Source: Komagataeibacter sp. FNDCR2 (GTDB lineage Bacteria; Pseudomonadota; Alphaproteobacteria; Acetobacterales; Acetobacteraceae). From it: a DNA stretch of 64,000 nucleotides. Numbering within the stretch: position 1 is the first letter of the stretch; every line of letters starts with the position of its first letter. Of the stretch, positions 1,090 through 4,660 are shown piece by piece. A program made the position numbers and the translations under genes. A model generated the notes under the pieces. That model ran no database searches. It saw only the letters and a list, made by a program, of their open reading frames with translations, and was not told the DNA's origin. The DNA is taken from assembly GCF_021295395.1 (NCBI RefSeq), contig NZ_JAIWOU010000001.1, forward strand, positions 2,434,501 through 2,498,500, in the 5' to 3' direction.

Positions 1090-3093
1090 TTGCGCCGGAC
1101 GCCCGCCGTTACCCTGACGCTCGGCCTGCTGGCGGCGATGGTGCTGTCGGCAGGCATGCTCTGGATACTCGACCGCCTGCTGCCGCCGGATCTGTCCCGC
1201 CTGCAAGCATCCGCCCTGATCCTGACTGAGCGCACCGGCGCGCGGCTGGACGGGCGGACAAGCGTGGACGGGGCGTGGCGGCTGCCGCTTGCGGCGTCAC
1301 AGGTTGATCCGGTCTACATGCACATGCTGCTTCTTACCGAAGACCGGCGGTTCTACTGGCATCCGGGTGTCGATCCGTTCTCCATGGCGCGTGCCGTTGG
1401 CCAGCTTGTCACGCGCGGCCATATCGTTTCGGGGGGATCGACGCTGGCCATGCAGGCTTCCCGCCTGCTCAGCCCGCACCGTCACAGCCTGCGTGGCAAG
1501 CTGCTGGACATGGCCCGCGCCATGCAACTGGAATGGCGTTATGGCCGCAGGGGGGTGCTGGACATCTACCTGACCCTGACGCCGGAAGGGGGTAATATCG
1601 AGGGGATCCGCGCGGCATCCCTGCTGTATTTCAATCACGAGCCCGATCACCTCGCGCGGCAGGAGGCCGCCGTGCTGGTGGCCATTCCCCGGCACCCGAC
1701 CACGTTGCGCCCCGGTCGCCACAGCGCACTGGCGCTGGCGGCCGCCCGGCGGGTGCTGCGCCGCACGGGGATGGGGCGGGGAGTGGAGAACGTCCCGTCC
1801 GATGCGGCTTCCCTGCCCGGGGCCGCCGCCATGCCGCATGCGGCTCCGGCGCTGCTTGCCCATGCATGGCGGGCCGGGCGGCGGGGCACCGTGCGTACGA
1901 CGCTTGATGGCAGGCTGCAACGCATGTTGCGCAGCGTCGTGGCCGCCCGTGACGCACCGTTGCGCGGAACCTTCGCCGCCCTTGTCGTCCGGCATGATGG
2001 GGGTGTGGCGGCCTGGATTGGCGGGGGCGAACATCAGTGTCCCGGCTGCGCGGTCGATCTGGTCCTGGCGCGGCGTTCGCCCGGTTCCACCCTGAAGCCA
2101 TTCATCTACGGCATGGCGTTTGACCGTGGGGTGCTGACACCGCGCACCCGGATCAGCGATGGCCGGATGAGCCTGTCAGGTTACGCACCGCATGATTTCG
2201 ACCAGAACTTCAGGGGTGAGACAACGGTTGCGGATGCCCTCAGGCAGTCACTCAACGTGCCTGCGGTACAGGCCCTGCGCCTGATCGGGCCGGATCATTT
2301 CCTGTCCCGTCTTGCCGCCTGTGGCGTGGTGCCCCGGCTGCCGGGCCGCGATACCGCGCCCGGCCTGGCGATCGCACTGGGTGGGGAAGGGATCTCGATG
2401 CATGACCTCGCCACGTTATATTCCGCCCTCAATCACGACGGCCAGGCCATGGTCCCGTATTTCGACGCGACCGGGCGCGCACCCGGCGCCAGCCTGCTTG
2501 GCCGGCGCGCGGCACAGGATGTACGCGCCATTCTGGAAGGGACACCGCCCCCACCGGGTACCGGACAGTGGAACCATGTCGCGTTCAAGACCGGCACGTC
2601 CTATGGCATGCGTGACGCCTGGGCTGCGGCGGTGACCGGACCATGGACCATTATCGTCTGGGCGGGCCGCCCGGATGGCACGGCCTCCCCCGGCATCACG
2701 GGCCGCGCAACGGCTGCGCCCCTGCTGGCGCATATCGTCAGCCTGCTGGAGCCGGATGGGGATATCATGGCATCTGGCGTGACACCCCGTCATCAGGCCA
2801 TACGCTATCTGTCACCCGCGCTGCGGCAGCTGGCCCGGCCCGGGGGGCCGCAGATCATCCTGCCCCGACCGGGCAGCGAAATGGAAAGCCGGGCTGATGA
2901 CGGCACCATGACCCCCATTGGCCTGGAGGCTGGCGGGGGAACGCCGCCCTATCGGTGGATGGTGAACGGAACGGGCCTGGAGGTGCCACCCGGAGCCATG
3001 CCGTCATGGTTGCCCGATGGTGTGGGTTATGCCCATATTTCCGTTATGGACATGCAGGGCCGCAGTGCCGCTGTGGATGTCAGGATTCGCTGA
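1090..3093 (+). CDS. pbpC: Penicillin-binding protein 1C (bifunctional peptidoglycan synthase)
   Basis: 667 residues from a TTG start 7 bp after the macroglobulin gene. An N-terminal membrane anchor (residues ~8-28) is followed by a GT51 glycosyltransferase domain with the catalytic-Glu segment TEDRRFYWHPGVD and the GGSTLAMQ motif. A transpeptidase domain follows with SxxK (Ser333 in STLK) and KTGTS (Lys500). The C-terminal ~90 residues fit the small BiPBP_C domain of PBP1C. The protein polymerises and crosslinks lipid II at the outer face of the inner membrane. Length is slightly short for the family (about 700-770) but all motifs are present. A hairpin repeat directly after the stop probably terminates transcription. 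Confidence 0.95.
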   Translation: MRRTPAVTLTLGLLAAMVLSAGMLWILDRLLPPDLSRLQASALILTERTGARLDGRTSVDGAWRLPLAASQVDPVYMHMLLLTEDRRFYWHPGVDPFSMARAVGQLVTRGHIVSGGSTLAMQASRLLSPHRHSLRGKLLDMARAMQLEWRYGRRGVLDIYLTLTPEGGNIEGIRAASLLYFNHEPDHLARQEAAVLVAIPRHPTTLRPGRHSALALAAARRVLRRTGMGRGVENVPSDAASLPGAAAMPHAAPALLAHAWRAGRRGTVRTTLDGRLQRMLRSVVAARDAPLRGTFAALVVRHDGGVAAWIGGGEHQCPGCAVDLVLARRSPGSTLKPFIYGMAFDRGVLTPRTRISDGRMSLSGYAPHDFDQNFRGETTVADALRQSLNVPAVQALRLIGPDHFLSRLAACGVVPRLPGRDTAPGLAIALGGEGISMHDLATLYSALNHDGQAMVPYFDATGRAPGASLLGRRAAQDVRAILEGTPPPPGTGQWNHVAFKTGTSYGMRDAWAAAVTGPWTIIVWAGRPDGTASPGITGRATAAPLLAHIVSLLEPDGDIMASGVTPRHQAIRYLSPALRQLARPGGPQIILPRPGSEMESRADDGTMTPIGLEAGGGTPPYRWMVNGTGLEVPPGAMPSWLPDGVGYAHISVMDMQGRSAAVDVRIR

Positions 3094-3166
3094 GAAGCTG
3101 CCTTTTTTCAAAAAGGCGGCGTTTCCTGAAGCCTTTTGAAAAGAGCTTCCCCCAAGACTTCCTTAT
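3094..3166 (+). repeat. Double-hairpin intergenic repeat, copy 1
   Basis: Two adjacent inverted repeats follow pbpC: 3097-3120 (a GCxGCC stem with a T/A-rich centre) and 3128-3149 (GAAGC...GCTTC), then a tail ending in ACTTCCTTATGG. The same order of elements, inverted, is found at 58516-58594, and shorter relatives lie at 26036-26082 and 43971-44014. It may act as a transcription terminator here. Confidence 0.7.
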
Positions 3167-3259
3167 GGCAGGCAGACTTTCCCACCCGGAAGCGCATGGG
3201 CTGCCGTGGATCACGTTAAGACGTAATGTGTTGATTTATAATGGATATGAAGTGATTTG

Positions 3260-3565
3260 TGGTGTCCGCGGCGGGATTCGAACCCACGGCCCCAGGATTC
3301 ATGCCACTTCGGCTTTCGCCGCCGCCATGGTGGCATGGCGTTCGTGGTCTGGACTGTCCCTTCACCATGGGCCGTAAGCGGCCGACAGGTGCTGCCCATC
3401 CAGTCTCTACACCTTGCCGGAGAAACAACCGGCCTTGGCTCGGGATTGGCACGGCGTTAGCCAGAGCGTTCCCCGAATTTGAGCAGATCCGTCACGTGGT
3501 TTCCCGTCGTGACGCCCAATTGAAAACCAGGAATCCTGTGCTCTATCCGGCTGAGCTACGCGGAC
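3260..3565 (-). tRNA. tRNA-Arg(CCU), interrupted by a group I intron
   Basis: On the minus strand exon 1 is 3565-3529 (G1 to U36) and exon 2 is 3299-3263, with an encoded CCA at 3262-3260. Joining the exons gives a complete cloverleaf: acceptor GTCCGCG/CGCGGAC, D-arm GCTC/GAGC, anticodon stem CAGGA/TCCTG with the 7-nt loop TTCCTAA (anticodon CCU), 5-nt variable loop, and T-arm GTGGG/CCCGC around TTCGAAT. The split falls exactly after the third anticodon base. This tRNA reads AGG, a rare Arg codon in GC-rich bacteria. Without intron removal the molecule could not function, so the gene depends on splicing. Confidence 0.95.
3300..3528 (-). ncRNA. Group I self-splicing intron (229 nt) in tRNA-Arg(CCU)
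   Basis: The insert follows U36 and ends in G, the expected U.G at the 5' splice site and terminal omega-G. On the minus strand I can trace P2 (CGTCACG/CGTGACG with a GGGAAACC loop end), P3 (CTGCTC at 3486-3481 with GGGCAG at 3397-3392), the P7 strands AGACTG (3406-3401) and CAGTCC (3356-3351), P8 (CACC...GGTG), an extra hairpin CGCCATG/CATGGCG (3340-3323) and a P9 GAAA tetraloop (3320-3311). Core segments closely match those I recall from the small Azoarcus tRNA-Ile and Agrobacterium tRNA-Arg introns (IC3 type). There is no room for a homing endonuclease. Confidence 0.93.
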
Positions 3566-3576
3566 ACACGCAGGCT

Positions 3577-3604
3577 TTCTAACCGAGCCAGCCCGGCCGG
3601 GCAA
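3577..3604 (-). promoter_or_regulatory. Possible sigma-70 promoter of the tRNA-Arg gene
   Basis: On the minus strand a TTGCCC (3604-3599) and a TTAGAA (3582-3577) are separated by 16 bp, placing a start site a few bases before the tRNA 5' end at 3565. Sequence resemblance only. Confidence 0.35.
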
Positions 3605-3640
3605 GGTGTTTTCCGGGGGCGGCCATGGAATATTCGCGCC

Positions 3641-4660
3641 TTAACGCCGCCTGCGGTCATGCTGCGCCTGCGCGCACAGGCGGGCGACATGGCGCAGGCA
3701 CAGCACGGTCTCCGGGCTGCCGGTCTGTTTGCAGGCCAGTTCCAGCGCCTGCGTTTCGTCCGCCGCGCGCAGCAGGGCGGCAGCGGACCATATGCCCAGT
3801 GCCTGTGAGAAACTGTCGGTTCGCTTGAAGAACACAGGCGGCCGCAACTGCCGCATGGCGTCCGCCCGGCTCATGCCGCCATCCATCGCGATCCGCGCAC
3901 GGCGCAGGCGGTGGATATGCGACAGCAGCACCCGCGTCAGCGCCACCGGGCTGCTGCCATCGGTCGTAAGGGCCCGTTCCGCCGCCGCGTCGGCCCCCCT
4001 GCGGTCGCCCGCCATGGCGGCGAAGGCCGCGTCTTCCAGCGAAACGCCAGCGGCATCTCCCACACAGGCCCGCACATCCTCCAGCCCCAGCCTGCCGCCC
4101 TTTCCGGCGAACAGGGCCAGTTTTTCCACCTCGCTGCGGGTGGCGGCCCGGTCGGGGCCGGCGCGTTCAACCATCCAGCCCAGCGCATCGGGGTCGATGC
4201 CGACATCCTGCGCCGACAGCATCTGCCGGATCGCGCCTTCAAGCGCGCGGCCTTCCTCCGGGTAGCAGCCGATCACGCCGCACAGGCGGTCCTTCTCGGC
4301 AAAGGCGCGCAGCTTCGCGCGGGACGCCAGCCCCGGCGCTTCCATAATGACCAGCGTATCCGACGCCCGCGCCAGACTGCGCTGAAGGGAGGCCAGCAGC
4401 CCGTCACCCGCCTCCCGCACCCAGATCACGCGCCGCCCGCCGCTCAGGGAAAGGGCGGTCGTCTCCTCTTCCAGCCGGTCATGCTCCTCGCGGCCCAGAA
4501 CCGCGACACGGAAGGGGTCGTCCAGATCGGGGCAGATGGCTTTCGCCGCCGTTGTGGCGCGCTCACGGATCAGCCCGGCATCGTCCCCATGCAAGATGAT
4601 GGCCCGCAGCGCGCCCGGCGCCTGCAACGTGGCGTTGATGGCGCGGGCTTCGATCTTCAC
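3641..4660 (-). CDS. holA: DNA polymerase III delta subunit
   Basis: 339 residues, normal for HolA. The delta subunit opens the beta sliding clamp inside the clamp loader complex. The N-terminal half has the AAA+-like fold pattern with a degenerate nucleotide site, as expected for delta (LILHGDDAGLIRERA, then VIWVREAGDG and LVIMEAPGL), and the helical C-terminal half has the family's SPVALTRVLLSHIHRLRRA segment. The start overlaps the lptE stop by 4 bp (ATGA), so the two are translationally coupled, the conserved lptE-holA order of Gram-negative bacteria. It is the last gene of a minus-strand operon DUF3576-leuS-lptE-holA. Confidence 0.93.
   Translation of the reverse strand: MKIEARAINATLQAPGALRAIILHGDDAGLIRERATTAAKAICPDLDDPFRVAVLGREEHDRLEEETTALSLSGGRRVIWVREAGDGLLASLQRSLARASDTLVIMEAPGLASRAKLRAFAEKDRLCGVIGCYPEEGRALEGAIRQMLSAQDVGIDPDALGWMVERAGPDRAATRSEVEKLALFAGKGGRLGLEDVRACVGDAAGVSLEDAAFAAMAGDRRGADAAAERALTTDGSSPVALTRVLLSHIHRLRRARIAMDGGMSRADAMRQLRPPVFFKRTDSFSQALGIWSAAALLRAADETQALELACKQTGSPETVLCLRHVARLCAQAQHDRRRR

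Follow-up and report, generated by a model that had tools for sequence, protein, structure and literature searches.

A group I intron splits the tRNA-Arg(CCU) gene of a Komagataeibacter genome

The stretch of the Komagataeibacter sp. FNDCR2 genome analysed here (64,000 nucleotides, termed the window) carries a tRNA-Arg(CCU) gene whose two exons are almost certainly separated by a group I intron belonging to the family known from alphaproteobacterial tRNA-Arg(CCU), one that would splice itself out to leave a tRNA reading AGG. The gene runs from 3565 to 3260 on the minus strand, ends in an encoded CCA and is interrupted by 229 nt (3528-3300) between U36 and A37. This agrees exactly with the initial annotation, which had placed at 3260-3565 a tRNA-Arg(CCU) split right after the anticodon by 229 nt, and the strand and coordinates were obtained independently with ARAGORN. 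The exons, the insertion site, the fold and its conservation come from the present analysis, and the splicing chemistry is taken over from relatives, on which grounds the intron of the split tRNA very probably removes itself. The parts of the gene are:

3529-3565, minus strand: 5' exon, from the 5' strand of the acceptor stem to U36, taken from the ARAGORN cloverleaf of the joined exons, with the anticodon CCU at 3531-3529.
3300-3528, minus strand: group I intron of 229 nt with omega-G at 3300, supported by the RF00028 match, ARAGORN, the alignment and the fold.
3260-3299, minus strand: 3' exon, from A37 to the encoded CCA, taken from ARAGORN, its first three bases AAU being able to pair with the AUU that precedes the guide (P10).

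When introns of 150-400 nt were allowed, ARAGORN called a single gene in the 64-kb window, tRNA-Arg c[3260,3565] (cct) i(38,229), and in its default mode, in which no introns are considered, it called no tRNA in the window at all. Shuffling the window 20 times in two-base blocks produced four intron-containing tRNA calls in total, none of them an Arg(cct) at 3260-3565. The joined exons form a complete 77-nt cloverleaf with CCA and are called as a tRNA, the result anticipated for a tRNA finder run on the spliced sequence. The Rfam group I intron model (RF00028, Intron_gpI) matches 3341-3534 of the minus strand (36.5 bits, E 1.2e-7), and in the whole genome the tRNA-Arg(CCU) intron is its sole match at E 10 or better. 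Since this score is below the 50-bit gathering score of the curated model, a default Rfam scan of the window lists nothing, and the covariance-model check suggested at the outset is thus positive by E value and short of the curated cut-off. It has been doubted that one alignment captures the group I subtypes (PMC6125680), and the shortfall marks the limits of a single broad model; reaching the cut-off is no part of what defines the intron RNA as group I. As the match ends short of the 3' end of the intron, the fold was built by comparison. A scan of 3080-3800 for promoters and terminators found none, and the folding energy of the precursor (taken as 3261-3566, offset by one base at either end) is unexceptional (z -1.56, with 7 of 100 shuffles as good) and so uninformative.

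The Rfam tRNA model returned 49 rows for the genome itself, 48 of them over the cut-off and none at the split gene. Both this model and default ARAGORN miss tRNA-Arg(CCU), as had been thought possible for ordinary tRNA searches, and with default tRNA and Rfam scans both failing on the gene, annotation may report tRNA-Arg(CCU) as absent. ARAGORN run on the same 49 stretches (its count of 54 includes repeats from overlapping stretches) found no Arg(cct) and did find Arg(tct), so that tRNA-Arg(UCU) is present, and an anticodon-arm pattern with up to one mismatch found no match to an intact tRNA-Arg(CCU) in the genome. Neither tRNA-Ile(GAU) nor tRNA-Ala(UGC) appears among the ARAGORN calls, the rRNA operons being perhaps masked or missing, and the tRNA list is for this reason incomplete. 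Given that list, the split gene seems to be the sole tRNA-Arg(CCU) of the genome; an intact copy elsewhere, which would have told against the proposal, was found neither by the Rfam tRNA model nor by ARAGORN nor by the arm pattern. tRNA-Arg(UCU) could read AGG by wobble, and since it exists AGG would not be strictly unread without the split gene; the earlier wording that AGG is left apparently unread was too strong.

The fold was written by hand over 15 aligned sequences (the window and 14 homologues) and comprises P1, P2, P3, P4, P5, P6, P6a, P7, P8, P9, P9.1 and P9.2, with 67 pairs in all. Pairing holds in 98.5% of 1004 cells, and two-sided changes occur in 34 of the 67 pairs. Cells with such a change number 142, versus 43.3 in shuffles (0 of 500 as high), and drop to 13-36 with the partner displaced by 1 to 3 columns. 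The helices are:

3515-3531, minus strand: P1, anticodon CCU (3531-3529) with guide GGG (3517-3515) and U.G at the 5' splice site; invariant in 15 of 15.
3490-3514, minus strand: P2 with GAAA tetraloop L2; 9 pairs, 6 with two-sided changes, 98.5% paired.
3392-3486, minus strand: P3 (3486-3481 with 3397-3392); 6 pairs, 3 with two-sided changes, 100% paired.
3440-3476, minus strand: P4 (3476-3471 with 3445-3440) enclosing P5 (3467-3449); P4 invariant, P5 with two-sided changes in 4 of 6 pairs.
3411-3439, minus strand: P6 and P6a; P6 invariant, P6a with two-sided changes in 5 of 5 pairs, 97.3% paired.
3352-3405, minus strand: P7 (3405-3401 with 3356-3352), the expected guanosine-binding helix; invariant in 15 of 15.
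3363-3391, minus strand: P8 and its extension; two-sided changes in 2 of 4 pairs (P8) and 5 of 5 (extension), the extension 89.2% paired.
3304-3347, minus strand: P9 (3347-3344 with 3307-3304) enclosing P9.1 and P9.2; 98.3% paired, two-sided change in 1 of 4 pairs.
3323-3340, minus strand: P9.1, the extra hairpin of the initial annotation; 7 pairs, 6 with two-sided changes, 98.1% paired.
3310-3321, minus strand: P9.2 with GAAA tetraloop; 4 pairs, 2 with two-sided changes, the GAAA loop in 15 of 15.

P1, P4, P6 and P7 never vary among the 15 sequences, so that covariation neither supports nor weakens these helices. Of the pairings traced earlier from the single sequence, P2, P3, P8 and P9 are corroborated by two-sided changes, and the invariant P7 lies beyond the reach of covariation. 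The extra hairpin noticed near P9 is real, being the covarying P9.1, but it is not peculiar to this copy: all 15 aligned sequences have it, varying in sequence and length, inside P9 and beside the GAAA-capped P9.2, and, judged on this alignment, it is a feature of the acetic acid bacterial branch of the intron and not of the window copy. A group I assignment is supported by the P3-P8 core, to which the RF00028 match (E 1.2e-7) belongs, and by the covariation of P3, P5, P6a and P8; the host tRNA-Arg(CCU) and the insertion between U36 and A37 are those of the alphaproteobacterial family, and the GAAA loops on P2 and P9.2 are compatible with the features of subgroup IC3. At 229 nt, the intron would be too short for a homing endonuclease gene.

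As to the splice site, it had been proposed that a perfect cloverleaf results only if the 229 nt are removed. The cloverleaf on joining is confirmed and the exclusivity is not, cuts shifted by -4 to +4 nt being also called; because junction shifts of up to 4 nt still give tRNA calls, the cloverleaf alone cannot fix the site. If the cut must follow a U, the intron must end in G and the guide must make three pairs or more, one solution is left within 8 nt either way (L112), and the site is common to the 14 homologues. The U.G/omega-G rule invoked earlier holds throughout, U37.G49 (precursor numbering) and the last intron G being invariant in 15 of 15 sequences, as are the U at the cut and the motif AATTGGG, and in a wider set of distinct Arg(CCU) introns TTGGG is found within the first 30 nt in 59 of 68. 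In a swap control at any offset, the guide of 67 Arg(CCU) introns pairs with its own exon end over 3.00 bp on average, versus 3.69 for the exon end of Thr(GGU) and 4.00 for that of Asn(GUU). The Arg(CCU) guide is only 3 bp, and its specificity rests on conserved position, not length, because the guide stretch pairs at least as well with exon ends from some other tRNAs.

In the precursor, the anticodon CCU would pair with the intron guide GGG to form P1, with the U36.G wobble at the cut. An external guanosine bound in P7 would attack after U36, as in group I introns generally and in the Bartonella bacilliformis intron, and the freed U36 would then attack after omega-G (base 3300), a second step that a 3-bp P10, formed by the AUU that precedes the guide and the AAU that opens the 3' exon, may help. 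The exons would thus be joined into a normal, CCA-ended tRNA reading AGG. A different fold of the 3' part, in which an 8-bp helix CAUGCCAC/GUGGCAUG hides the 3' splice site and so controls splicing, was tried and rejected: the helix is a perfect 8 bp in the window sequence, but it is unconserved, with 59.1% of cells paired, a value that 127 of 500 shuffles reach, and we consider control of this kind very unlikely.

The self-splicing intron proposed here has close counterparts beside leuS in other acetic acid bacteria. A protein scan with the neighbouring LeuRS, which is 91% identical to the LeuRS of Komagataeibacter intermedius and K. rhaeticus, matched at least 594 stretches, at least 593 of them encoding a relative; the best 80 loci, from Acetobacteraceae and relatives, were kept. 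The flanks of 14 of these 80 contain a tRNA-Arg(cct) with an intron of 225-254 nt in the same place (two Komagataeibacter, one Novacetimonas, two Gluconacetobacter, three Acetobacter, four Gluconobacter, one Swaminathania and one uncultured Commensalibacter), so that the suggested comparison with other Acetobacteraceae yields 14 same-site homologues, all in acetic acid bacteria. For the remaining 66 loci, the flanks gave neither an ARAGORN Arg(cct) call nor a BLAST match to the precursor at E 0.01, a result that covers the flanks alone, as the tRNA may lie elsewhere in those genomes; at L037, L038, L040 and L047 (two Acetobacter estunensis, one Acetobacter sp. MAG and one Neokomagataea MAG) the flanks hold no ARAGORN tRNA call or BLAST match. 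Relative to leuS, the split tRNA is downstream and on the same strand at the loci of Komagataeibacter, Novacetimonas, Gluconacetobacter, Acetobacter and Commensalibacter, whereas at those of Gluconobacter and Swaminathania it is upstream and on the opposite strand; the comparison sets L041-L044 and L046 against L032-L036, L039, L045, L087 and L104.

Intron and LeuRS distances among the 15 sequences are correlated (Mantel r 0.88, with 0 of 5000 permutations as high), and the nearest neighbour by intron differs from that by LeuRS in 5 of 15 rows, within a genus for the window and L043 and across genera for L033, L046 and L104. Among the acetic acid bacteria compared, the intron looks to have been mainly vertically inherited, with some exchange possible.

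On a wider scale, genomes were scanned with a covariance model of the P3-P8 core at E 0.01, a match to which does not by itself name the host tRNA. The core is matched in 188 of 397 sampled genomes of the family, in 14 of 14 of the genus and in 49 of 387 sampled genomes of the class (six of these 49 in the family, the window's own included). The intact Arg(CCU) anticodon-arm pattern (up to one mismatch) is present in 101 of the 397 family genomes and in 0 of 14 in the genus. As read from the two lists, core match and intact arm occur together in 19 family genomes, and in G058, G134, G183 and G355 they coexist because the intron sits in tRNA-Leu(UAA).

These counts also bear on the idea of a dead tRNA gene, in which splicing has been lost and tRNA-Arg(UCU) is the only reader of AGG. 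The latter tRNA is indeed present, and the codon load is modest, with 18 AGG and 1 AGA in 2675 codons of six hand-chosen ORFs near the gene. However, the exons still form a complete cloverleaf with CCA, the core pairing is unbroken and has persisted from genus to genus with compensatory changes, and within the genus the core is found in 14 of 14 genomes and the intact arm in none of the 14, a conservation that points to selection for splicing and makes a dead gene extremely unlikely. An insert removed by proteins, as are archaeal introns of the bulge-helix-bulge type, or some other element inserted in the anticodon loop can be practically discounted, for while the site beside the anticodon is also used by protein-spliced introns (PMC4033280), the group I core, the U.G, the omega-G and the guide are all there, the helices covary, and the same paper describes bacterial tRNA introns as self-splicing group I.

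Beyond the window, the group I core is not confined to tRNA-Arg(CCU): in some related genomes there are two core matches, or one accompanied by an intact Arg(CCU) arm. The host was examined at 128 loci, a non-random set of best matches, two-match genomes, genomes with a match and an intact arm and a pick for variety, among which are the locus of the window itself and one or more duplicates, many of the genomes being drafts. Five hosts were fixed beforehand and, at some loci, preferred over other ARAGORN readings, such as His(atg) or Leu(gag). Assignment by the U/omega-G cut and a guide of at least three pairs succeeded for 104 of the 128 loci (102 distinct sequences), with 24 left out; since a locus needed such a guide to be assigned, its presence is in part a circular result. 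The hosts are Arg(CCU) cut after 36 (70 loci), Leu(UAA) after 34 (26 loci, L160, L164, L167, L168, L173, L175, L177 and L189 among them), Thr(GGU) after 36 (four: L162, L163, L186, L251), Asn(GUU) after 36 (two, with a partial core match: L195, L197) and Arg(UCU) after 34 (two: L157, L194). Outside the assigned set, L166, L169, L172, L178-L185, L187, L190 and L193 have core matches beside tRNA-like exons; by eye, L179-L181 resemble tRNA-Lys(UUU) and L166, L169 and L172 a tRNA-Leu.

The swap control covered 101 of the 102 introns, one having no P2 loop found. For own versus best other exon it gave 4.00 versus 3.04 for Leu(UAA), 3.75 versus 1.00 for Thr(GGU) and 4.00 versus 3.00 for Asn(GUU), with 3.00 versus 4.00 for both Arg(CCU) and Arg(UCU). 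By this measure the guide is host-specific in three of the five hosts (Leu, Thr and Asn) and not in Arg(CCU) or Arg(UCU). GAGTGC or GGGTGC is present in 26 of 26 Leu(UAA) introns, and both Arg(UCU) introns carry GAGTGC. An automatic guide pick (18 rows, 17 loci) fell deeper in the intron than the expected guide in the three Thr rows, in L157 and in the Arg(CCU) row. On a midpoint-rooted tree of the introns there are 6 host changes; 500 shuffles of the labels gave 30.9 on average and never fewer than 26. Each of Thr, Asn and Arg(UCU) forms one branch (4, 2 and 2 tips), unlike Arg(CCU) with its 68 tips and Leu(UAA) with its 26. The Asn introns are remote from all others (distance 1.8), and in the two copies the match to the core model is confined to positions 11-96 (E 4.3e-7 and 2.5e-5).

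The cyanobacterial and plastid tRNA-Leu(UAA) introns sit after U34. tRNA-Leu(UAA) is well known as an intron host in cyanobacteria and plastids, site 37/38 being given for most such introns (PMC4033280). No bacterial intron in tRNA-Thr(GGU), Asn(GUU) or Arg(UCU) is named in the titles and abstract openings of the literature consulted. We lean, by a modest degree, toward a reading in which at least four tRNAs of Acetobacteraceae and some other Alphaproteobacteria host introns that share this core, namely Arg(CCU), Leu(UAA), Thr(GGU) and Arg(UCU), Asn(GUU) being a probable fifth, with few moves between tRNAs, with the Leu, Thr and Asn guides fitting their own hosts, with the Arg(UCU) guide of Leu type as if after a recent move, and with no room for an endonuclease. 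The odds of this reading are lowered because the Asn copies match the model partly and because Arg(CCU) and Leu(UAA) are not single branches. The set, fresher than the window copy and drawn in part from drafts, is best regarded as a lead.

Overall, the window copy is a further well-supported case of a known intron, and the 15-sequence alignment provides a clean consensus fold, with the P9.1 stem, for the acetic acid bacterial branch. The several-tRNA set, if confirmed, would be good material on how tRNA introns change their host gene.

Among known systems, the intron in the tRNA-Ile(CAU) of Azoarcus belongs to subgroup IC3, has a three-base guide pairing with the anticodon and carries GNRA loops on P2 and P9. 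The intron in the window is alike in its three-base guide and GNRA loops and differs in its host, tRNA-Arg(CCU), and in the added P9.1 stem. Another example is BbgpI, in the tRNA-Arg(CCU) of Bartonella bacilliformis, which is reported to splice in vivo and to self-splice in vitro, and whose gene was unannotated, tRNAscan-SE having found the tRNA only in its spliced form (PMC7717549). For tRNA-Arg(CCU) introns elsewhere in the Alphaproteobacteria, the same paper refers to Paquin, Heinfling and Shub 1999. BbgpI and the intron described here interrupt the same tRNA, BbgpI being likewise flanked by the anticodon CCT (PMC7717549), but they come from different organism groups, and splicing has been demonstrated for BbgpI, whereas the window intron is known from its sequence. 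Within acetic acid bacteria, footnote c to Table 1 of PMC4596401 (2015) reads 'One tRNA (Arg) is split by a sequence homologous to a group I intron' and marks Asaia bogorensis, Acetobacter pasteurianus, Gluconobacter oxydans, Komagataeibacter medellinensis and Gluconacetobacter diazotrophicus, with Granulibacter bethesdensis left unmarked, so that five of the six acetic acid bacteria in the table carry the footnote. The presence of such an intron in an acetic acid bacterium, singled out in the initial annotation as deserving attention, had therefore been on record for those five species; an intron in acetic acid bacterial tRNA(Arg) is already known, and the window copy is a correct but ordinary instance. 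The introns of that table share with it the host amino acid and the organism group, and while their record is a table footnote without anticodon, structure or splicing test, the copy in the window comes with its anticodon and its fold.
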